Positions 14,287-51,415 of a stretch of DNA of 64,000 nt are shown in pieces. The stretch is from NCBI GenBank assembly GCA_022564295.1, contig JADFLR010000011.1, positions 1 to 64,000 on the forward strand, read 5' to 3'. The translations under genes were made by a program, and so were the position numbers. Positions within the stretch are counted from its first letter, which is position 1. Every line of letters begins with the position of its first letter. The notes below the pieces were generated by a model, which saw only the letters and a list, made by a program, of their open reading frames with translations, searched no databases and was not told where the DNA came from. The DNA comes from Bacteroidota bacterium (GTDB lineage: Bacteria > Bacteroidota > Ignavibacteria > Ignavibacteriales > Ignavibacteriaceae).

Positions 14287-14890
14287 AGATTATCTCCTTT
14301 TAATTATTAAACTCTGCAAGCCAATAAATAAATAAGAAAAAATCCCCAATGAGTTAATCATCTCTCCGACGGAGATACCTTCAGGATCTAAATCTTCTAA
14401 ATGCCATTAGGCTATTAGAATTTTAGAGCAAATATTTCCGCTTCGATAAAATGGCGAAGAGATAATACAAAGATGAGAAAAAATTTTCATAAACGCAAGT
14501 ATAATCAGCTATTACAGAAAATATTTAAAGTAGTTTCACCAAGTGATTTTATAAGTAGTTATTATATCTTAATTTTATCAAGACTTAGGAAAATAACTGC
14601 TCTGATCGTAAATCACCTCGATAGAAATATTAATTAATATCAACATATGCCTATTGCATTAATTTCAATTTTTTGTAATACCTGATAATGATAAATGGAT
14701 TAAGAGAAACTGAGATAATTTTTCAGTACGATTAATTAAAAATGTGTAAATTTATCTGCCGATAGTTGTGTCTTAGTTACAGGAAAACTAAGTTGACAAC
14801 AATGATTAGAAAAATAATTTTGAGTCTTTATTATGTGGATAGTAAATACTCAAGCTGAAAAAATATTTAATATTTAAACTAGAAGCAAAA
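14287..14890. other. Non-coding region between orphan gene and Moco leader
   Basis: This AT-rich region of about 600 bases shows no supportable reading frame on either strand. Only a short hairpin TCTCCGACGGAGA near 14360 stands out. It probably contains the divergent promoters of the orphan gene and the Moco operon, which I cannot place. Confidence 0.4.
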
Positions 14891-14976
14891 TAACTCCGAG
14901 CCAAGAAGCCTAAGTTTTTTATGTGGTTTGAGACCGATAGGGTGTTGCCGGAAACAGCAGAACCTCCCGTATTTGA
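14891..14976 (+). ncRNA. Candidate molybdenum-cofactor (Moco) riboswitch
   Basis: The leader of moaA shows a run of structured, GC-richer segments unlike the surrounding AT-rich spacer. They include ACTCCGAGCC near 14893, a small GGTTTGAGACC hairpin near 14925-14935, a GCCGGAAACAGC loop (14947-14958) and AACCTCCC (14961-14968). These lie just before the Shine-Dalgarno. Placement directly upstream of a Moco operon and the CCGAGCC and CCTCCC blocks recall the Moco RNA motif. I recognise this by resemblance only, and the full fold is not verified. Confidence 0.45.
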
Positions 14977-14988
14977 AAAGGAGTAAAA

Positions 14989-16011
14989 GTGAAATTTGTA
15001 ACGAATAAACTGCAAACATCAGCAAGTCCCGATACCCGTCTTGTAGATCCATTGGGCAGAGTAATGAATTATCTGCGTTTAGCTGTCACCGACCGTTGTA
15101 ACTTGCGCTGTCAATATTGTATGCCTGCTGAAGGGATTCCTTTAAACAGTCGTGATCATATTCTCCAATTTGAAGAGATGGAACAACTTATTCAGATATT
15201 TCAGAACCTCGGTGTAAATAAGTTGCGGATTACCGGTGGGGAACCATTTGTACGAAAAGGACTACTGGAATTTTTAAAAAGAGTGAATAACTTTGAGGGG
15301 ATAAATTCAATTAATATTACAACCAATGCAGTTTTTATTGGAGATATTATCTCCGATTTGGAACAATTAAAAATTGGCAGTTTAAATATTAGCTTGGATT
15401 CTTTACAAAAAGATAGATTTTTTAAGATTACCCGCAGGGATGAATTTGAGATTGTAATGGAGAATATTGATAAGGCTATAAAATCTACGATACCTGTAAA
15501 ACTAAATATGGTTGTTTTAGCCGGGATAAATGATGATGAGATCCTTTCATTTACACACCTTGCAAAAGACAATCGCATCGAGGTACGCTTTATTGAGCAA
15601 ATGCCTTTTAGTGGGGGACCGGCTTCAGAAAGCATAATAAGTGCCGATCAAATTCTTAATATTTTACGACAGCAATACCCGTTACTTTATGAACAAAATT
15701 TACCAAATTCCACCGCACGTATTTTTTATAATCCTGGTTATAAAGGCACCATAGGAATTATCGCCGGTTATTCACGTACCTTTTGCTCATCCTGCACAAG
15801 GTTAAGGATAACGCCGGAGGGCATGCTAAAAACCTGTTTGTATGACCGTGGAGCAGTTAATTTAAAAGAGATGCTGCGCTCAGGTAAAACAGATCTGCAA
15901 ATAAAAGATGCAATCATTATGGCAGTGCAAAACCGGGCAAAAGATGGTTTTGAATCACAAGAGAGATCCAGCCAGGATTACAACGTATCAATGGCTCAGA
16001 TCGGGGGTTAA
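14989..16011 (+). CDS. moaA: GTP 3',8-cyclase MoaA
   Basis: This radical SAM enzyme starts molybdenum cofactor synthesis by converting GTP to 3',8-cyclo-GTP, with MoaC acting next. The protein has 340 residues. The N-terminal SAM cluster site is CNLRCQYCMP; the C-terminal second cluster is FCSSC followed by KTCLY, both with three cysteines. The C-terminus ends in Gly-Gly, needed in MoaA. Start is GTG at 14989, five bases after AAGGAG. It is the first gene of the Moco operon; moaC is not in the window. Confidence 0.96.
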   Translation: MKFVTNKLQTSASPDTRLVDPLGRVMNYLRLAVTDRCNLRCQYCMPAEGIPLNSRDHILQFEEMEQLIQIFQNLGVNKLRITGGEPFVRKGLLEFLKRVNNFEGINSINITTNAVFIGDIISDLEQLKIGSLNISLDSLQKDRFFKITRRDEFEIVMENIDKAIKSTIPVKLNMVVLAGINDDEILSFTHLAKDNRIEVRFIEQMPFSGGPASESIISADQILNILRQQYPLLYEQNLPNSTARIFYNPGYKGTIGIIAGYSRTFCSSCTRLRITPEGMLKTCLYDRGAVNLKEMLRSGKTDLQIKDAIIMAVQNRAKDGFESQERSSQDYNVSMAQIGG

Positions 16012-24947: not shown

Positions 24948-26015
24948 ATGCCATCAAGACATTACAGAAAACACAAAAAATCAAAATCCGGATTAGGATA
25001 TTGGTTAAAATACAGATTCGCTACAGAGTTTGATCAAAACATACAAGCATTGGTTTATTTTGGAGCTGCCTTCCTGATTATTATAGTTGGTTTAAGAGGG
25101 CTTGGAGATCTTAGCGATGTTTCGTTCATTCCGCAATTTTTACTTGATCCTAATGGAAAAATAGATGCTAATCTTGTAATGCTCGGATTAACAGTTGAGT
25201 TCCTGATGCTGTGTTTGTTAGCCGCAGTATCATATTTTGCGCCTGCCGAAAAAAGGGCGGACTTGCAATCAAGCCTTGATAGTCTTTCTTTATCGGTTGA
25301 GAAACTATCAGAAACCATTCCATCAGAATTAGTACAAAAACTAATAACCAGCGCACAGGAAACAGCAGCAGCATCCGAAAAACTATTATCTGAAGAAATT
25401 GAAATACTTAATAACTTCAGATCAAAACTTGATGAAAGAATAAGACAAATGGACCAGGATATTATCCTTGTAAGACAAAATATTGCACAGGGTATCATTG
25501 ATTCTTCAGCCCAGATGGAAGCAATAGTTAAAAAGGAACAGGAAACGCTTGGATCATATAATAAACTTATTGAAGGGCTTATAACAGGAACAAAGGAAAC
25601 ACTTAAGAATATTTCTCAAAACATATCTAACGAAGTTAAACGAACATTTGCTACCTCTGCTGCAGTTATGACACGGCAGGAGAAAATGATAGTTAAATTT
25701 TATGGTATAAACTCAAAACTTCTATCCGAAGCACAGGAAAATTTTAAAAAGTTTATTCTGAACTATTCTGAAATGGTTGAAAAGGAATCCCAGAGATTAG
25801 AATGGTTAAGTGCAAAGCAAATTCGACCGGAAGAGTTTATACTTAATATGAACAAAACAAACGAACTTCTAATTACTCATCTTGAAAATATAGATAAGTC
25901 ATTGAGGATAATATCAAATGGGCAGGGCTCATCGTATGATGGACTTGGTAGAAAAAAATCCTTCTGGGGATGGATGGGAACAAAAAGGCGCAGACAACTG
26001 GATGAAATACATTGA
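24948..26015 (+). CDS. GldL-like two-helix membrane protein with coiled coil
   Basis: The 355-residue protein has a basic N-terminus (about 1-22) and two closely spaced transmembrane helices (about 33-52 and 75-97). A long helical cytoplasmic tail (about 100-330) follows, with heptad-like repeats. The second helix and following turn, GLTVEFLMLCLLAAVSYFAPAEKR, resemble the GldL/PorL motor protein of gliding and type IX secretion (GL-x-x-E, hydrophobic run, F-x-P-x-E). GldL forms a pentamer around GldM and uses the proton gradient. The C-terminus is basic. It is the first gene of a four-gene run; the next starts nine bases later. The assignment is by pattern and layout only. Confidence 0.55.
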   Translation: MPSRHYRKHKKSKSGLGYWLKYRFATEFDQNIQALVYFGAAFLIIIVGLRGLGDLSDVSFIPQFLLDPNGKIDANLVMLGLTVEFLMLCLLAAVSYFAPAEKRADLQSSLDSLSLSVEKLSETIPSELVQKLITSAQETAAASEKLLSEEIEILNNFRSKLDERIRQMDQDIILVRQNIAQGIIDSSAQMEAIVKKEQETLGSYNKLIEGLITGTKETLKNISQNISNEVKRTFATSAAVMTRQEKMIVKFYGINSKLLSEAQENFKKFILNYSEMVEKESQRLEWLSAKQIRPEEFILNMNKTNELLITHLENIDKSLRIISNGQGSSYDGLGRKKSFWGWMGTKRRRQLDEIH

Positions 26016-26023
26016 ACTGACAA

Positions 26024-26584
26024 ATGAATAGAACTAGAGTACCATTTTATTTTGTTCTTTATCTGGTTGTACTGATACAACTACTTGCAGTAATTATTGA
26101 GCGGGACAGTACCGAGTTAGAACTACAAGCACGCTTGAATGAATACGCTACAATTCAGGATAGTATTATTTCATTATACAGCCGACCAATATTATTAGAT
26201 GTTCAGGAAGAAACCGATTGGTTGATTTCAAGCAAGGATAGTGTGCATGTACTAATTTCGATCTCTAACTTACATACTCTCGAAGAAAAGTCAGGAGTAC
26301 AGTATTATATTAACCCTGATGACGAGGGAGATTACTATAATGTTTTTCTTGATAAAAAAACAGGCAACGGAAACTTTTACTTCAAAACGAATAAAAACGG
26401 CGTTTATAATTTTGATGTTTACTGCAAATTAAGAAGACAATTGCCTCGATATTTACCAGATATAATTATTGATGGCATATTTGCTAAAGTAGGGACTGAT
26501 TATAAAGCAACTAGTGACACTGTAAGCTTTAGGATCAAAGCAAAACACCAACAACAATCCTTTGATAAACCGGGTAGAGGTTAA
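26024..26584 (+). CDS. Single-span periplasmic protein, possible truncated GldM-like partner
   Basis: This 186-residue protein has one N-terminal transmembrane helix (about 7-25, YFVLYLVVLIQLLAVI) and a periplasmic part. An acidic helical segment follows the membrane (ERDSTELELQARLNEY), then beta-rich sequence. One helix followed by a helical linker and beta domains, directly after a GldL-like gene, recalls GldM, but GldM is about 500 residues. The rest could be supplied by the next gene. No sequence motif proves this. Start is nine bases after the preceding stop. Confidence 0.45.
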   Translation: MNRTRVPFYFVLYLVVLIQLLAVIIERDSTELELQARLNEYATIQDSIISLYSRPILLDVQEETDWLISSKDSVHVLISISNLHTLEEKSGVQYYINPDDEGDYYNVFLDKKTGNGNFYFKTNKNGVYNFDVYCKLRRQLPRYLPDIIIDGIFAKVGTDYKATSDTVSFRIKAKHQQQSFDKPGRG

Positions 26585-26625
26585 TGTTTAAGGTGCAATT
26601 ATAAATTTTTGTTCGAGAATTAATT

Positions 26626-27825
26626 ATGAAAAAAATATTACTAACCATTACAATAATGATTTTTAGCAGTACCGTTGTATTTTCCCAGGCAAGCAGGGTA
26701 ACATTTGGGCTGGGCAAACCAATTGAGGTGTTGGACACTATAAACGTTTTTGTTGGCGAGCATTTCGAGATAAAAGATAAACTATCTGATTGGTCACATA
26801 ATTTTGGAGATCTTACCTATACTCTAGGTGTTTATCTTGATAAAATAGATGGCGGTAACGGGAGGATAACATTCGAAAGAAACATCGGCGGGCTTGAATA
26901 TTACAGAGGTCGGTTAACCTATTCCAATTTACAGGGAATCAAATTAAAATCTAATGTTGAAAAGGGAGTGAATCCCGGAGACTATGAAGTTCAGCTTTCT
27001 TTAGATATTAACTCCGCGGGAGTTTATTATTTTGTAGGATTAATTAAAGGGAAAAGTGAGCGAGGCAGCCATTTTGAATATGCCGGTTACTGGATTGTAA
27101 ACTGTTCACCAAGAGCTCAAAGAGAATTAACACACGATATTAATCTAAAAGATTTTTACTACTACGGAGAATCTGTTTATTTGGATTTCAGTTTATCCGG
27201 AGAGGGAATGGATAAAATTTCAAATTATTACTTTAGAATTTTTGAAAGTGAAAAAGAGATCTACTCCGGATTGGGTTCATATATTAACCTTGGTGTAATA
27301 ACAAAAAACACCGCAATGGTTAACAGATCATTTCGCGTTGAAGGGTATTATGGCGGACGTATAATACAATTCTTCAACCCATCTCTTCCTGGTGCCGATT
27401 CTACCATTTGGAATTTTAAACTTCTTCCGCCCAAAAGTTTTGAGTTCTTAACAAATTGGTTAAGTGAGGAAGAGTTTAACAGTCTTTCAAAAAATGATGT
27501 TATTGATGCTATAGATATGCACGTGGTTGAAAACAGAAAACTTAAATTCATGTATTATTCTCCAATAGAAAATGGTGCAATGGTAACACAACCAGAACTT
27601 AGAAACCTAACAGTTACCGCTTCGCCACCAGAGTTTTTGGTGGGATCTTCGAACAAATATCGTGCATACGACGATGGTATATGGAAAGTAATAGAACTGA
27701 ATGTTAATTCGAGATTTTTAAGCAGTATCTCGGATAATGCAACTATAAAGATAACACTGCATATTAGATTTACTACCCAGTTCGGCGACCAGAAGGACCT
27801 TACTTATATAGGGTATGTTTTTTAA
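26626..27825 (+). CDS. Secreted beta-rich protein of the GldL-like operon
   Basis: This 399-residue protein has a clear signal peptide (about 1-20, ending VVFSQA). The mature chain consists of tandem beta-sandwich-like segments with many aromatic residues. I recognise no family. It lies between the short membrane protein and an outer-membrane barrel gene, with gaps of 41 and 18 bases, so it probably acts in the periplasm with both. One possibility is that it carries the periplasmic domains missing from the previous, short GldM-like protein. Confidence 0.55.
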   Translation: MKKILLTITIMIFSSTVVFSQASRVTFGLGKPIEVLDTINVFVGEHFEIKDKLSDWSHNFGDLTYTLGVYLDKIDGGNGRITFERNIGGLEYYRGRLTYSNLQGIKLKSNVEKGVNPGDYEVQLSLDINSAGVYYFVGLIKGKSERGSHFEYAGYWIVNCSPRAQRELTHDINLKDFYYYGESVYLDFSLSGEGMDKISNYYFRIFESEKEIYSGLGSYINLGVITKNTAMVNRSFRVEGYYGGRIIQFFNPSLPGADSTIWNFKLLPPKSFEFLTNWLSEEEFNSLSKNDVIDAIDMHVVENRKLKFMYYSPIENGAMVTQPELRNLTVTASPPEFLVGSSNKYRAYDDGIWKVIELNVNSRFLSSISDNATIKITLHIRFTTQFGDQKDLTYIGYVF

Positions 27826-27843
27826 AAATGAATTGGAACAATT

Positions 27844-28752
27844 ATGAAAGTTAAATTTCACTTATTTGTATTTACCACTCTGATAATGGGTTTTATTTTA
27901 ACTCTTAATTCTGGTTTGTATGCACAAGAGATAAGAAAACCAAAAAAAATAACAACAGAAGAGACTTCAGGTTTCAAACTCAAATACGGCTCAGGGTTAA
28001 CGACAAGATATTTGTGGAGAGGGTTAGATCTTGCAAGGTCTCCTGCATTGCTTCCTTATGGTCAGGCAACATTTTCTAATTTTGAAATTTCTCTTTACGG
28101 TATATTCGGTCTTTTTGAAAATGCATCTAAACATCCGGATTTTGTAAAGCCACAATTCCCTGGAGAAATCAATCCTTTTTTCTTACAACGAATAGCTTTT
28201 AATCAAATAATAACAAATTTCTTTTACCGAATTAAATCCGAATTTGGAGATATCAGAATTGGGTTTACTGAATACTATTTTCCGGATGGACTAGTGAAAA
28301 AGGTAAAGGTAGATTCGAATGGTGTAGAAACTATATCGTACCCACCATCAACCTGGCTTAATTGGGATGATAATGGTGAAGGGGCACACACAATTGAAAT
28401 TAATGTAAGGTTCGAAGGAAATAAAAAGTTTCCTCTGTGGTTTCTTGTTGCATTTAATGTTTACAACGATCCTGACAACTCATTATACCTAGAAACAGGC
28501 TATACATTTAATGTATTGTTAAATAAATTTACATTGTATCTTGGCTCTGCTATCGGAGCATCGTCCTGGTATCAGTTTAATTTTAAGAATGGAGCGTTTA
28601 GAGGTGACTTTATGACATCCTTCGGTTTAACGTTTAGCAGAGAAATTTATTTGAGCGACTGGTTGCTTATTGATTTTGCGTTAACTGATATTATAAATTT
28701 TTATCAGGAAAGAAACACGATATTATTTACAACAATTCTTAAAATTGAATAA
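27844..28752 (+). CDS. Predicted outer-membrane beta-barrel protein
   Basis: The 302 residues start with a signal peptide (about 1-27, ending YAQ). Alternating amphipathic strands follow, ending in an aromatic-rich C-terminal strand (NTILFTTILKIE). The segment GSGLTTRYLWRGLDLARSPALLPY resembles the opening strand of barrel proteins with an S/T-R-Y-x-W/F-R-G motif. It is the last gene of the operon, followed by a strong hairpin shared with the RRM gene. The role is probably an outer-membrane component of the same machine. Confidence 0.6.
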   Translation: MKVKFHLFVFTTLIMGFILTLNSGLYAQEIRKPKKITTEETSGFKLKYGSGLTTRYLWRGLDLARSPALLPYGQATFSNFEISLYGIFGLFENASKHPDFVKPQFPGEINPFFLQRIAFNQIITNFFYRIKSEFGDIRIGFTEYYFPDGLVKKVKVDSNGVETISYPPSTWLNWDDNGEGAHTIEINVRFEGNKKFPLWFLVAFNVYNDPDNSLYLETGYTFNVLLNKFTLYLGSAIGASSWYQFNFKNGAFRGDFMTSFGLTFSREIYLSDWLLIDFALTDIINFYQERNTILFTTILKIE

Positions 28753-36749: not shown

Positions 36750-38216
36750 ATGAAAATTGCTTTTGCAGCTGCCGAAGCAGTTCCTTACGCTAAAACAGGT
36801 GGTCTTGCTGATGTAGCCGGTTCCCTGCCAAAAGAATTAGAAAAGCTTGGCTGCGAAGTAAAAGTATTTATTCCCAAATATTTTTTAATTGATGAAGAAA
36901 AGCATAAGCTTCACTATAATTGGGATATAGGCGAAATGCCCATCCGGATTAACGGTATTACACGTTCTGTCCATGTTCTTCAAAGTATACTACCCGGCTC
37001 TAATGTAGAAGTAAATTTTATTGATTGTCCGCATTATTTTCATCGCCATCGTATTTACACAAACGATGTGGATGAAGATGAAAGGTTCATTCTTTTTTCT
37101 AAGGGTGTTATTGAAACATTACAGAGAATGAAATGGGCGCCCGATATAATACATTGCAACGATTGGCAAACGGGTTTGCTGCCGCTTTTTGTAAAAGATA
37201 ATTATAATTGGGATAGACTGTTCGATGAAACAGCAACTTTGTTTACAATTCACAATATTGGTTACCAGGGAAGATTTTCAACTTCAGTTTTATTTAATGC
37301 GGAAATACGCGAAGAATTATTTTATCCGAATGGTCCTGTTGAACACAACGGTACGGTTTCATTCATGAAAACAGGAATTGTTTTTGCAGATATTCTTAAT
37401 ACCGTTAGTAATAAATATTCACACGAAATTCTGAAACCCGATTTGGGTGCAGGATTGGATGGAATACTGATGGAAAGAAAAGAAGACTTGTACGGGATAT
37501 TAAACGGTGTGGACTACAGCATTTGGAATCCGAAAACAGACGAGTACATTCCTTATCATTATTCTTCGGAAGATTTAAGCGGTAAAATTAAAAACAAACG
37601 TATTTTATTAGAGCACTTTAATATGCCGTTTGAAGTAACTGTTCCGCTAATTGGTATTGTATCGCGAATGGTTGCACAGAAAGGATTTGATATATTTAGC
37701 GAAGCAATTAACAATCTTATGAATTTGAATGCCCAGTGGCTTATATTGGGCAGCGGGGAAGATCAGTATGAACAATTATTCAGAGAAATTGCTCATAAAC
37801 TTCCGCAGAAAGTTGGAACTTACATCGGTTACAACAACGAGCTTTCTCATCTTATAGAAGCCGGTGCAGATATGTTTCTTATGCCTTCGCGTTACGAACC
37901 ATGCGGGTTAAATCAAATTTACAGCTTAAAGTATGGTACGGTTCCGATTGTGAAGAAAACTGGTGGATTGGCGGATACAGTACATGATTGGGATGAACTG
38001 ATAAGCTTTGGATTAGAAACCGGAACCGGTTTTTCCTTTAACCATCATACAGGTTATGCTTTGTTAACAAGTGTTCAGCGGGCACTAAATAATTTTAAAA
38101 ATAAAACTGTTTGGAAAAAAATTCAATTGAACGGAATGGTAAAAGATTATTCATGGAAACATTCAGCCGAACAATATATTGAGTTATACCGGCTTGCTAA
38201 AAAGAAGCGGGGCTGA
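36750..38216 (+). CDS. glgA: Glycogen synthase (ADP-glucose type)
   Basis: The 488-residue GT5 glycosyltransferase elongates alpha-1,4-glucan from ADP-glucose. The N-terminal KTGGLADVAGSLPKEL (K-x-G-G-L) binds ADP-glucose. HCNDWQTGLLP, TIHNIGYQG and the C-terminal SRYEPCGLNQIYSLKYGT with TGGLADTV complete the family pattern. The length is normal. Its last 20 bases overlap the convergent patatin-like gene. Other glycogen genes are not in the window. Confidence 0.95.
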   Translation: MKIAFAAAEAVPYAKTGGLADVAGSLPKELEKLGCEVKVFIPKYFLIDEEKHKLHYNWDIGEMPIRINGITRSVHVLQSILPGSNVEVNFIDCPHYFHRHRIYTNDVDEDERFILFSKGVIETLQRMKWAPDIIHCNDWQTGLLPLFVKDNYNWDRLFDETATLFTIHNIGYQGRFSTSVLFNAEIREELFYPNGPVEHNGTVSFMKTGIVFADILNTVSNKYSHEILKPDLGAGLDGILMERKEDLYGILNGVDYSIWNPKTDEYIPYHYSSEDLSGKIKNKRILLEHFNMPFEVTVPLIGIVSRMVAQKGFDIFSEAINNLMNLNAQWLILGSGEDQYEQLFREIAHKLPQKVGTYIGYNNELSHLIEAGADMFLMPSRYEPCGLNQIYSLKYGTVPIVKKTGGLADTVHDWDELISFGLETGTGFSFNHHTGYALLTSVQRALNNFKNKTVWKKIQLNGMVKDYSWKHSAEQYIELYRLAKKKRG

Positions 38217-40923
38217 TATTCACATTGTACCCGATAGAAAAATAGAAGAAAATTTCACCCCATACAACCGGGTTTTCCGGTAACTTTTTGTTTAATAGAA
38301 AACTTCTTCCTATTGCAAATTCAGTGGGACCTATCGGCGTATCAAAAGAAAGAATTCCACCAATACCATGCCGCAAATCTTTAAATCTTATCTGCGATTG
38401 TTCCAGCCAGGTATTTCCAAGATCATATCTTAATTTGATATAGGTATCAAAGAAAACTTTGAAAGGTAATTTTAATCTATACATAAGCGATGTGAGAAAA
38501 ATTTGCCTTCCGCGGAATTCATTTTCTCTCATTCCTAAAAACGAATCCATTCCACCCAGAAAAAATTGTTCGCTAAGAGGTGTGGTGTTATCGCTAAAAC
38601 CAATTTTTATTCTTGGTATAAGGGTGCTTCGTTTGCCTAAATTAAAAAAGTATCGAAAGTCCATTCCGATTGAAATGAAACTCTGGTTACCACCAAGAAA
38701 ACTTTGAGCCGTTTCATAAAAACCGGTAAAGTATAATCCACTCAAGGGATAAGGATACTTGTTCATGTTATCAATTGTGGTATTTAATCCAATACTAACT
38801 AATTTTGTTTTAAACTGTTCAACAGCATCTCCTTCAATATTTTCGATTTCATCAAACTGATATTTTCCTGTAAAGATAAGATTTCCAAATTTCTCTATCT
38901 GTGTTCCCAACGAAAGAGATATTCCATAAAAAGTTTGATTATATACTCCCGTTTTAACCCGGGAGAAAGTTTTTGTCGAGGATTGCGGAACATCCTCATA
39001 AACATTGATATCGCTAAATTTATAATAAACGCTTGCATTATAGGTTAAGTACGTATTTAAAATCCTATGATTTTTTATTTCGAAAATATATGCACCGTTA
39101 CTTGCACCACCGTAAAGGAAAAGCCCGGCTTCAGTTCCGGAACCAAAAATATTTTCGTCTCTTATATCAAGACTAAACTGTGCATTATAGGTTTCGTCTG
39201 CGAGAAAACCAAATCGCAGTACTCCTGATGGTTTTTCATCCACGTGGATTATAAGAGTATTTTTTCCGTCTTCTTCAACGATAAGCATTGCAATATCTTT
39301 AAAGAAACCCGAATTGCTTAAGTTCTCCAAACTTTCTTCTACTTTATCATAAATAAAATATTCACCTCTTTTTATTTGAAGCTCCCTTGTAATTAAAGTT
39401 TCCCTGGTAAAGTTACCCTTAACTATTATGTTTGATATCAATCCTTCATTAAAAAACAACATCAGGGTTCCTGTGAGCTCATCGAAATCTAATCTTTCAA
39501 AATCTGCCAATAAATATCCCTTTAGACGATAATGCCTTAATATTTTTGATATTGTTTTTGCAATTACTCTGTTATTAAATGGTTTATTAATTAATATGGA
39601 AAGAATTGATTCGACAACTTGTTTATCAATTTGCTTAATACCAATTGCTTCGATTGTTTTTATAACAGGGTTTAGCCGATAATTAAACTTTAGGATTATT
39701 GAATCTGGAAACCCTGCAACTTCCATACTTATCGATTTGTATTTGCCTGTTTCATAAAGATGTGCCATATCTTTTTTTATTTCTGCACTGGAAACAGAAT
39801 CATAAGAAACATACTTATTAAGCAAAGAAAATAATTCTTTTTCCTTTTCATTATTGAAGACGATATTTTTAATAAAAAACTCATCGTGTTTTAATCTACT
39901 GTTAAAAAAGGAATCGGCGGCAGTTTTAATGTTGTTTATAACCGGCAGGGTGCTCTTATAACCAAGCAAAATAAGAGAATCAATATTAACAAATTCAGTT
40001 GAAGATTTATCATATAAAACCGGTGTAATAACAAAATCTGCAAGAGACAGCTGAATTGCATTTAGTTTTTTCATCGGGATACTTACAACCTGATCTGCAA
40101 TGTACCATGGTAAATCAATTTTCTCTTTCGGATGCAGCGGACTTGTAGTGTTCACGGCTATAATTAAATCGGCACCATTTTCTTTTGTTATATCCACAGG
40201 AATGTTTGATAATAACCCGCCGTCAACAAGCAGTTTATCATCCCATTTTACTGGTTCAAGGAAAAAAGTAACGCTGGAGCTTGCACGCATTGCCCTGCTT
40301 AATTGTCCGTTCTCTAATACAACAATATCGCCGGTTATCAAATCGGTACAAACTGCTCTGTATTTAATCCACAAATCATCAAAGCTTTTGCCCGGATGAA
40401 CGGGCGCCTGGTTAGTGAGCAGGTAAAGATAATTTGTTAATTTTTGTCCTTCGCTAAATGATGTGGGTAATACGGGATTCAGTCCGTCTAATCGTAAAGC
40501 AAATAAAGCCCTGTCCTCGGTTATCTTCTGGCTTATAAAAAGTTCACGCCGGCTTTTCTTTTGATTTAAAGAAAGCATATTGCCCCAGTTTGTATTTAAA
40601 GCAATCGAATCAAGCTCATCTATCGTAAAACCGGCTGCATAAAGACCACCGACAATGCTGCCCATACTTGTACCGACTATTACATTTGTTTCAATACCTG
40701 CTTCATCCAAAGCTTTAAGAACCCCAAATTGTGAAAGTGCCCTAGCACCGCCACCGCTTAATGCTAATCCGATTACCGGTTTATCTTTCGGAAAATATTC
40801 AACCAATCCGAATGGAAGATTTCTGGTGTTTAATTCAAGAGTTATGGTTTTTTTTTCCTGTGAATAGGAAACAGAAATGAAAAACAGTAAAGGAAGGAGG
40901 ATTATTTTAAGCAATAATTTCAT
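38197..40923 (-). CDS. Patatin-like phospholipase fused to Omp85-type barrel
   Basis: The 908-residue protein has a signal peptide (about 1-21), then a patatin domain with the oxyanion GGGARAL (57-63), nucleophile GTSMGS (Ser86) and catalytic Asp in DGGLL (about 230). POTRA-like beta-alpha repeats follow (about 330-560), and a C-terminal surface-antigen barrel (about 570-908) carries a GLRENEFRGRQ-like element. This order matches PlpD-type type Vd autotransporters and patatin/BamA hybrid proteins of Bacteroidota. It could be a lipase displayed at or tethered inside the outer membrane. Confidence 0.9.
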   Translation of the reverse strand: MKLLLKIILLPLLFFISVSYSQEKKTITLELNTRNLPFGLVEYFPKDKPVIGLALSGGGARALSQFGVLKALDEAGIETNVIVGTSMGSIVGGLYAAGFTIDELDSIALNTNWGNMLSLNQKKSRRELFISQKITEDRALFALRLDGLNPVLPTSFSEGQKLTNYLYLLTNQAPVHPGKSFDDLWIKYRAVCTDLITGDIVVLENGQLSRAMRASSSVTFFLEPVKWDDKLLVDGGLLSNIPVDITKENGADLIIAVNTTSPLHPKEKIDLPWYIADQVVSIPMKKLNAIQLSLADFVITPVLYDKSSTEFVNIDSLILLGYKSTLPVINNIKTAADSFFNSRLKHDEFFIKNIVFNNEKEKELFSLLNKYVSYDSVSSAEIKKDMAHLYETGKYKSISMEVAGFPDSIILKFNYRLNPVIKTIEAIGIKQIDKQVVESILSILINKPFNNRVIAKTISKILRHYRLKGYLLADFERLDFDELTGTLMLFFNEGLISNIIVKGNFTRETLITRELQIKRGEYFIYDKVEESLENLSNSGFFKDIAMLIVEEDGKNTLIIHVDEKPSGVLRFGFLADETYNAQFSLDIRDENIFGSGTEAGLFLYGGASNGAYIFEIKNHRILNTYLTYNASVYYKFSDINVYEDVPQSSTKTFSRVKTGVYNQTFYGISLSLGTQIEKFGNLIFTGKYQFDEIENIEGDAVEQFKTKLVSIGLNTTIDNMNKYPYPLSGLYFTGFYETAQSFLGGNQSFISIGMDFRYFFNLGKRSTLIPRIKIGFSDNTTPLSEQFFLGGMDSFLGMRENEFRGRQIFLTSLMYRLKLPFKVFFDTYIKLRYDLGNTWLEQSQIRFKDLRHGIGGILSFDTPIGPTEFAIGRSFLLNKKLPENPVVWGEIFFYFSIGYNVNISPASF

Positions 40924-47520: not shown

Positions 47521-48837
47521 ATGAAACAAAGGTATTTAAACAGCAAGATTGTCTTTATTCTTAGTACACTTTTTTTCCTTGATGCAGAAGTTCTTTTACC
47601 GCAAATAGACTGGATAGAATATTCTTCAAATCCTATAATACAGCCAACTACGGGGTGGGAATCCGGAGTTGTTCTTACGCCCGCTGTAATTAAACATGGC
47701 GACACACTAAAAATGTGGTACACAGGGACAACATCACTTTTCAATCCTTCAAGTATAGGATACGCCTGGTCCTTGGATGAAATTACCTGGACAAGATACG
47801 GTGGCAATCCTGTAATGAGTGGTCGCAGTGGTGAATGGGATGATCAGGGAATAGCGATGCCCGTAATGATATCAGATGGCGATACTTTAAGGATGTGGTA
47901 TGGAGGAGGCGGATTGAGTCCTGACGAATGGGATCTTGGTTATGCTGTATCAGTTAACGGAATTAATTGGACCCGCTTCCCCAATCCGGTTTTACAAAGA
48001 GGGGTTGCAGGAGAATGGAATGCTGATGTCCTTACAACGGGAGGGGTAATTAAAGAAAAGGGGATCTATAAAATGTGGTTCACCGGAGGAACCGGTTCCG
48101 TTAGCCCGGCAAACCAGAATACAAAAACCAGCATTGGTTATGCAACATCAACAGATGGATTGGATTGGACAATTTATGATGATCCAACTACAACAACAGC
48201 GCCATATGAATTTAGTGATCCGGTAATAGAACATGGAGAGAGTGGTGAATGGGATTCCAATGAAACGCTTTCATCAAGTGTTATTAAAACTATCAATGGT
48301 TATCAACTATGGTATTCAGGATGGATAGCAGGATCCTCACAAAATATAGGATATGCTACATCATTAAATGGAATTGAATGGGTAAAGCATACGAACAATC
48401 CTGTTTTCAATGCCCCAGAGACATGGACAAATCTTCTAGTATTTCCAAGTGTTCTGCTTGATAACAACGAATATAGAATGTGGTTTCAGGGATGGCAGGG
48501 CGGTACGGCATCCATAGGTTATGCAACATCTTCGGTTACTAATGTAAATGAAGAATCTTATGGATATATGATTAAAGATTTTATCTTGTATCAGAATTAC
48601 CCAAATCCATTTAATCCACAAACTGTGATTAGCTATAAAATTCGCGCGCGCAGTAATGTAGTAATCAAAATTAATGATGTGTTGGGAAAAGAAATTTCAA
48701 CGCTTGTTAATGAAGAAAAAAATGCCGGAACATATGAAGTAACTTTTAATGGCGATGAGCTTCCGAGTGGTATTTATTACTATAAAATTATTATTGGAAA
48801 CTTTTCCGACACTAAGAAGATGATTTTGTTGAAATAA
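47521..48837 (+). CDS. Secreted glycosidase-like five-bladed propeller with T9SS sorting domain
   Basis: The 438-residue protein has a signal peptide (about 1-28). Repeats of the pattern G-D-T-L-(K/R)-M-W-Y and GYA-x-S-x(D/N)G-x-x-W-T follow, like the blades of GH43/GH32-type glycosidases or of sialidase-like proteins. The C-terminal sorting domain is canonical (YQNYPNPFNPQTVISY, NDVLGKEISTLVNEEKNAG, KKMILLK). Catalytic residues cannot be assigned, so it may bind rather than cleave sugars. GAGGAGG precedes the ATG. Confidence 0.8.
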   Translation: MKQRYLNSKIVFILSTLFFLDAEVLLPQIDWIEYSSNPIIQPTTGWESGVVLTPAVIKHGDTLKMWYTGTTSLFNPSSIGYAWSLDEITWTRYGGNPVMSGRSGEWDDQGIAMPVMISDGDTLRMWYGGGGLSPDEWDLGYAVSVNGINWTRFPNPVLQRGVAGEWNADVLTTGGVIKEKGIYKMWFTGGTGSVSPANQNTKTSIGYATSTDGLDWTIYDDPTTTTAPYEFSDPVIEHGESGEWDSNETLSSSVIKTINGYQLWYSGWIAGSSQNIGYATSLNGIEWVKHTNNPVFNAPETWTNLLVFPSVLLDNNEYRMWFQGWQGGTASIGYATSSVTNVNEESYGYMIKDFILYQNYPNPFNPQTVISYKIRARSNVVIKINDVLGKEISTLVNEEKNAGTYEVTFNGDELPSGIYYYKIIIGNFSDTKKMILLK

Positions 48838-50353: not shown

Positions 50354-51415
50354 ATGAAGAAAAAACTATTGTTTCTTTTGTTAACTGCAATTGCTTTCTT
50401 ATCCTTTGTTAACACAAGTTTTGCTCAAGCAGGTGGTGTGTGCTATGCTACTCTTGGTACGAACGATCCTGCCGGGGGAAGTCTCATTATGATTGATATC
50501 GCTACCGGTGTCGGTACTATTGTTGGCCCAAGTGGGTTACCTGCCATACCGTCTTTAGCGATTAATTCTGCAGGCCAATTGTTTGCTACCAACATCGCAG
50601 ATCCTGCAAACCTTTACAGTATAGATCCAGCTACCGGCATGGCGACGCTGATTGGAAGTACGGGATTATTCTTCCCGGACGCCCTGGCTTTTGATGCCAA
50701 TGACAGGCTTTATACCATGGATAGTAACAATGACCTGTAAATCCTGGATCAAGCTACCGGGGCAGCTACTTTAGTAGTCAGTGTGACTGCCACCATCAGA
50801 GGGATGGAATTCGATCAAACCACTGGAATACTATGGGGAGGTGAAGGTGGTGCTCCCGGTACCAATGATGGAATCTACACCATTGACCTGACAACTGGTA
50901 CTGCCACACTTGTTGGCAACACAGGGCTAGGTAGCAATACCCCGGCCCTTTGCTTCGATCAAGCCGGAAATCTCTATGGCACTATGGGAGGTGGGAATAA
51001 TCCAAACAATCTCATTTCCATTAACAAGACAACAGGTGTTGGAACTATCATTGGTCTAATTGGCTTTGTAGCCGTTGCCGGCATGTCGTCTTTACCCCCA
51101 CCTGTAAGTGTTGATGATTCACAAGCGGGCATACTTACAATATATCAGCTTGCACAGAACTATCCAAATCCTTTTAACCCAACTACAAGGATAACATTTA
51201 TTCTACCTGTTGATTCAAAGGTTAGTTTAAAAATATTTGATGTTTTGGGACAAGAGGTTGCTAATCTTATTACAGCAAACTTAAATGCTGGTATTCACGA
51301 GGTGGATTTTGATGCCTCTGGCTTTAAGAGCGGTGTTTACTTCTATAAAATTGAAGCTAACGCTATTGATGGATCAGCTTTCACAGATGTGAAAAAGATG
51401 TTGCTGCTCAAATAA
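50354..51415 (+). pseudogene. T9SS-exported repeat protein interrupted by an in-frame stop
   Basis: One reading frame runs from the signal peptide (MKKKLLFLLLTAIAFLSF..., ending SFAQ) to a complete T9SS sorting domain (YQLAQNYPNPFNPTTRITF, DVLGQEVANLI, KKMLLLK). It is broken by TAA at 50738-50740. The frame continues at once as ILDQATG, and similar units elsewhere (LYSIDPATG, IYTIDLTTG) have Tyr at that place, so TAT/TAC to TAA is the likely change. Repeats of I-D-x-x-T-G-x-x-T-x-(I/V)-G suggest a propeller-like fold. It may be a true pseudogene, a sequencing error or a readthrough case. AGAGAGG precedes the ATG. Confidence 0.8.

Follow-up and report, generated by a model that had tools for sequence, protein, structure and literature searches.

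What kind of machine is encoded by the four consecutive genes at positions 24948–28752 of contig JADFLR010000011.1, from a Bacteroidota bacterium of the family Ignavibacteriaceae (assembly GCA_022564295.1)? An earlier note, made from the letters of the window alone (the window being the whole 64,000-nucleotide stretch that was analyzed), had read them as a GldL-like operon and possibly as a split or divergent motor of gliding or of the type IX secretion system (T9SS). We find that the first three genes belong to a cassette that is conserved beyond chance, and we hold with moderate confidence that the first two proteins, P1 and P2, make up a motor of the inner membrane, driven by ions, that is coupled through the third, P3, to outer-membrane proteins and works as an accessory machine. 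P1 (24948..26015, 355 amino acids (aa)) is a GldL-like membrane protein; P2 (26024..26584, 186 aa) has one membrane helix and one immunoglobulin (Ig)-like domain; P3 (26626..27825, 399 aa) has a signal-peptide-like start and is beta-rich; P4 (27844..28752, 302 aa) also has a signal-peptide-like start and is barrel-like by sequence. All four lie on the plus strand, separated by gaps of 8, 41 and 18 bases, and are real genes in a tight operon. Library scans of P1–P4 gave no Pfam or NCBIfam match above cut-off.

The cassette is patchy in the order Ignavibacteriales, in which some genomes are incomplete. A single-query search found P1 in 21/59 genomes of the order including its own, and a 22-row core profile recovered the same 21 genomes (22 loci) at E ≤ 1.3e-25, with the next match at 1.3e-3. 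By family, P1 is present in 16/37 genomes of the window's family and in 5/22 of two others. Within its own genome (4.07 Mb, 59 contigs) P1 is unique at E ≤ 0.001; a candidate second copy (G000:C41, E 0.0067) was rejected as a coil match only; the protein concerned (302 aa) is MlaD/MCE-like by reading. The earlier note had proposed a check of synteny in Ignavibacteria, and this bore out the grouping: P1 and P2 are neighbors in 20/20 loci fetched from other genomes (the P2 of locus L044 is weak, E 0.0013) and P3 comes next in 19/20, the contig of the remaining locus (L027) ending after P2. A further set of 37 loci was drawn from named genomes in one scan with a single pattern. P2 is present in 36 of these and P3 in 34, with gaps mostly < 60 bases and with three loci (L165, L175, L193) cut by contig ends. 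Their titles are Ignavibacteria, Ignavibacteriales, Melioribacteraceae and similar, plus two 'Bacteroidetes bacterium' and two 'Chlorobiota bacterium', and the closest loci come from bacterium BMS3Abin03. No match to P1 was found in viral contigs, and no description of a P1-P2-P3 cassette was found in those portions of the literature that were searched.

P1 has two helices, read from its sequence at about residues 33–54 and 77–98, followed by a long charged coiled tail. Its invariant residues are Tyr37, Arg50 at the end of helix 1 and Glu84 in helix 2; helix 1 ends in GAA-x8-R. Glu84, to which the earlier note had already pointed, is the same in 21/21 rows of the P1 alignment A1, and the Arg and the Glu are kept in 37/37 loci of the named-genome set. 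The two helices of that note likewise stand, whereas its long coiled tail is present in the window but restricted, among 20 loci, to the window's genus, where P1 measures 347–356 aa as against 160–228 aa in most other loci. The P1 of L044 reaches 440 aa owing to an N-terminal extension. Sequence searches of the PDB were set aside, as alignments A1 and A2 returned coil or chance matches only and A3 returned none.

P2 had been described as a single helix with a helical linker, and its AlphaFold2 model (mean predicted local distance difference test score, pLDDT, 84.7) agrees, with a continuous helix at 6–53 and a beta-sandwich at 57–175. The membrane helix, which carries an ERD motif at 26–28, would thus run on into a periplasmic helix before an Ig-like domain at about 55–177. 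Structural matches from Foldseek and VIA-align are general Ig-like, cadherin and macroglobulin domains (best Z 9.3, rmsd 2.8, 91 aligned). Seven residues before ERD, 36/36 named-genome relatives of P2 have a membrane Glu, as do the 20 other rows of alignment A2; such a carboxylate on an axle recalls ExbD, TolR and MotB. The P3 model (mean pLDDT 75.1) is confident from about residue 165 on and poor before. We read it as about three beta-sandwich domains, the last two confident, in keeping with the secreted, beta-rich protein of the earlier note, and structural matches are again Ig-like, cadherin and macroglobulin (best Z 7.8, rmsd 16.3, 240 aligned). P3 is probably a periplasmic coupling protein.

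Clustering of 24 neighborhoods and the window, together with the scan of the 37 loci, gave the usual gene order c5-P1-P2-P3-c0-c1, often followed by a second c0-c1. The membrane protein c5 is present in 21/37 loci, and the one tested matches DUF2254 (PF10011, E 3.3e-12). c0 (~505 aa) occurs in 32 of the 37 loci and c1 (~463 aa) in 31. No Pfam match was obtained for the one c0 and two c1 proteins scanned; in our reading each probably begins with a periplasmic part and continues into an outer-membrane barrel. c1 is present in 17/59 order genomes, a set identical to the cassette genomes once the four that belong to the window's genus are taken away. In that genus P4, by our reading a putative outer-membrane barrel, follows P3 (L163, L164 and the window; the contig of L165 ends before it), and relatives of P4 were seen in only two congeners within the loci fetched, no genome-wide search having been made. 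Since c0 and c1 stand elsewhere where P4 stands here, the cassette seems to combine a constant inner part with an exchangeable outer part. P3 and c1 are alike over their first 67 columns (62.6% by hhalign, signal peptide included).

In the model that we favor, P1 hairpins would form a ring around a P2 dimer, as in a motor of the 5:2 type, and protons (or sodium) would pass between P1 and P2 by way of Glu84 of P1 and, in most relatives, also Glu19 of P2. The P2 dimer would move and its Ig-like domain would hand the motion to periplasmic P3, which would transmit it to the outer-membrane proteins, namely c0 and c1 in most cassette-bearing Ignavibacteriales and P4 in the window's genus. The output would be an energized outer-membrane process such as transport, secretion or the movement of surface proteins. 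The model rests on gene order, co-occurrence, conserved residues and the predicted domain layout of P2 and P3; what we infer is the stoichiometry, the ion, rotation, which parts touch, that c0, c1 and P4 sit in the outer membrane, and what the machine finally does.

Deeper relatives of P1 extend through the class. The A1 profile reached 39/296 phylum genomes; many of those from other families of the class hold two to five matches each, and by profile comparison the class-level cores are beyond doubt homologous to P1 (hhalign 99.7%). Short relatives have a partner made in one piece, its head resembling P2 (248 aa with 470 aa, 210 aa with 428 aa); in G107 and G282 this is one 428–470 aa protein, and no P3 was present in the stretches fetched. 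c0 resembles the partners of this one-piece type (hhalign 88%, E 3e-6), and a similar relationship for c1 was rejected at 1.9%. Elsewhere a 271 aa gene precedes a 488 aa gene whose start is P2-like by eye only, the A2 profile not matching it, and a 466 aa gene precedes a 744 aa protein that the A2 profile does match. Another type of relative (325 aa) adjoins an AAA protein: at L086:8671-14453 a 325 aa GldL-like protein overlaps the beginning of a second one (1603 aa), which carries AAA_16 as well as BNR repeats and, below the cut-off, matches Por_Secre_tail; here a motor-type protein has an ATPase as its neighbor.

Outside the order, the long forms of the class comprise 28 genes with open frames of at least 430 aa, of which 26 (437–558 aa) were viewed with wide flanks. 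Sixteen of these 26 lie directly before a same-strand C25 peptidase gene of 1740–1942 aa, with a gap of -40 to 286 bases, whereas C25 adjacency is found in 0/8 shorter rows (two rows being one gene). The 16 adjacencies are not independent events, because the genomes are related to each other. The long forms concerned (L081, L082, L083, L087, L265, L267, L272 and L274–L282) carry an additional N-terminal region, by reading membrane plus periplasmic. A C25 peptidase with a FlgD-like end is of the PorU/gingipain type, and the adjacency thus links the wider P1 family with type IX secretion. The true PorU, however, is probably encoded by the other C25 gene, with an open frame of 1310–1470 aa, which adjoins a PorV-like gene (by reading) in the window's own genome (G000) and in G111. 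Within the order, the large C25 gene (~1780–1930 aa) has no P1-like neighbor in the seven loci viewed (L254–L260).

How close are P1 and P2 to GldL and GldM? The GldL model TIGR03513 is above cut-off in 70/296 phylum genomes, none of the same class; in the window's own genome its only match is at E 5.2 and at another gene, and it is not listed for P1 in the NCBIfam scan up to E 10. The GldM model TIGR03517 and a 12-row GldM alignment gave 0 matches in this genome, and the second, conventional gldL, gldM and gldN for which the earlier note had suggested a search were not found there. A full-length hhalign comparison of P1 with GldL was discarded, as the reversed control scored higher (26.9% versus 17.8%); because coils dominated it, only membrane cores were compared. 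The hand-cut P1 core scored 19.1 against GldL, and automatically cut P1 windows ≤ 17.3. The first 11 class cores reached 26–48% with scores of 23.0–26.5, and six short ones 14–47%; as sets, the 11 class relatives scored 25.6, 34 relatives 23.2 and the 26 long ones 18.8. Reversed cores gave < 1%, and 0/100 column shuffles reached the observed score in the two sets tested. We regard the likeness of the P1 and GldL profiles as suggestive. Helix-2 Glu49 of GldL is strictly conserved and essential for function (PMC8986121), and domain D1 of GldM spans residues 32–232 (PMC5790014).

Profile comparison revealed no likeness of P2 or P3 to GldM, nor of P3 to the one-piece proteins. GldM and PorM are absent among the structural matches listed for P2 and P3, which proves nothing. 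An acidic residue within the 14 residues after the RQxMI motif is found in 0/47 GldM sequences, a count made without the GldM of L133 and L134. These two loci carry very diverged GldL-GldM-GldN sets, whose GldM is short (380–399 aa) and by eye lacks the helical D1 bundle. Candidate matches of c0 and c1 to GldN were rejected, since the alignment was limited to the signal-peptide region (6.8% and 3.4%). The proton-driven envelope machine of the earlier note thus keeps its architecture and its motor-like pattern of membrane carboxylates but not its membership in GldL and GldM, whose models miss P1 and P2. Its GldM divided between two genes survives as an analogy of layout, in that the single Ig-like domain of P2 and the three or so beta domains of P3 together resemble a shaft. 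We suggest that P1-P2 would work like GldLM, and we do not file it there because the family models miss it and the GldL profile likeness is only suggestive.

Several observations weigh against an ion-driven, GldL-like motor. The P1 core reaches only 1.6–8.4% (local, scores 15.4–20.6) against the GldL core, and an unrelated RND hairpin, in a small control of 20 windows from 6 families with GldL itself one of them, comes barely below it at 4.5% and 17.8. The likeness of the class cores to GldL drops to 5–25% in the fuller set of 34 and to 2–6% in the 26 long ones. Position 19 of the window's own P2 is Gln (codon CAA, 26078-26080), where the three congeners fetched have Glu; this is a tolerated change if Glu19 is dispensable, or a real loss that impairs this copy, or a wrong base from an assembly error. 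One-piece relatives carry Asn or Gly at this position. Finally, the own genome lacks c1, and P4 has no profile similarity to c0 or c1.

An unlikely alternative is that P1-P2 is a diverged but true GldLM, the missing T9SS motor of the Ignavibacteriales, in which P2 and P3 would be the two pieces of a divided GldM shaft. The order does have a type IX translocon with hardly any recognizable motor. In a search that covered the order only, SprA was found in 58/59 genomes (57 above cut-off; G000:C31 in the own genome, E 3.7e-288), yet GldN (PF19841) is above cut-off in 0/59, own included, GldL in 0/27 order genomes within the phylum sample, and GldM is convincing in 1/59. This last match (E 2.7e-20) is in G015, a genome that is 81% complete and in 590 contigs, and we take it, unproved, to be contamination. 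Melioribacter and Ignavibacterium are reported to possess PorV, SprA and Plug but to lack every other T9SS protein (PMC11705866), and a 2016 survey (PMC4793230) gives T9SS in 60/97 Bacteroidetes genomes and in no other clade. The C25 adjacency of class homologues argues in the same direction, as does T9SS cargo in the window, noted earlier and recovered here as PF18962 matches above cut-off at 47521-48837 and 50783-51415. Against a true GldLM stand the sequence of P2, which is unlike GldM, the membrane Glu of its relatives where GldM has no acid, and the dissimilarity of c0 and c1 to GldN. Moreover, 37/58 SprA genomes lack the cassette by the single-query or core-profile search (the full A1 profile covered part of these). 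With 21/59 genomes as compared with 58/59 for SprA, the cassette is not the general T9SS motor; SprA genomes without it either run on something unseen or need no motor. The cassette is most likely an accessory machine, which perhaps shares ancestry with a T9SS motor.

A Ton/Tol-like energizer that serves uptake or export by opening or driving outer-membrane barrels of its own, and whose likeness to GldL is convergent, has a similarly low probability. The single-helix carboxylate and the barrel-like partners in the operon, often in tandem pairs, would fit such a system, and an unrelated hairpin comes close to P1 in its similarity to GldL. Pfam rows up to E 10 (HMMER filters drop most weak matches) contain, however, neither an ExbB/MotA nor an ExbD/TolR family, and there is no TonB or peptidoglycan-binding match. 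A static tether or scaffold that joins the inner and outer membranes with no motor is in our view quite improbable: periplasmic beta-sandwich chains and coils also make up tethers, and the window's P2 lacks the membrane Glu, but the Arg and Glu of the P1 hairpin, kept in every locus of the named-genome set, are then hard to explain. The accessory P1-P2 motor is our preferred reading. A broader and more tentative proposal would place P1-P2 in a new family of ion-driven envelope motors, of which the class has several versions, some with the shaft split and some with it in one piece; the family would combine a GldL-like carboxylate on the ring with an ExbD/MotB-like one on the axle and drive its own outer-membrane barrels, while the long cousins beside C25 genes power type IX secretion where GldLM is missing.

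Upstream of the operon, on the opposite strand, lie genes for an RND pump-like protein (by reading), an HlyD-type protein and a methyladenine glycosylase-like protein (by reading); downstream are a small RNA-binding-like protein and then metH. Elsewhere in the window, a molybdenum-cofactor riboswitch (RF01055, 52.6 bits) occupies 14882-14999 at the start of a moaA-like gene (14989-16011), and 38197-40923 encodes a patatin phospholipase fused to POTRA and an Omp85 barrel.

Since long homologues precede C25 genes and the order is nearly without GldL, GldM and GldN, the P1 family is a candidate for the missing motor and supplies concrete genes to test for the gap left by SprA without a motor in Ignavibacteriales. 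If P1-P2 is indeed a motor, the known range of ion-driven envelope machines widens, it becomes clear how two genes can share a shaft, and the proton sites of the GldL type and of the ExbD/MotB type may be bridged.

Among known systems, ExbB-ExbD, TolQ-TolR and MotA-MotB resemble P1-P2 in pairing a multi-helix with a single-helix protein and in the single-helix carboxylate seen in most P2 relatives. P1 differs from ExbB, TolQ and MotA in having two helices and no PF01618 row, and the cassette has no ExbD/TolR or OmpA-like match. Zorya ZorA-ZorB is likewise a motor-type pair with a long cytoplasmic coiled tail; three ZorA models match the P1 tail only (102-293, best E 3.1e-4) and not the membrane part, and ZorB gave no row for P2. 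The GldLM system differs from the P1 cassette in its GldN, whereas the cassette has barrel-like proteins in its operon. The loop between the two P1 helices is longer than in GldL, and no family model matches. GldM has four periplasmic domains, the first a helical bundle, whereas P2 has one beta domain and no D1 bundle, its relatives have a membrane Glu, and the further beta domains are on the separate secreted P3. In overall plan the two nevertheless correspond: GldL, like P1, has two helices, a Glu in helix 2, a cytoplasmic tail and a similar helix-1 spacing (GAA-x8-K compared with GAA-x8-R), and GldM, like P2, has one helix and periplasmic beta domains and is encoded next to its partner.

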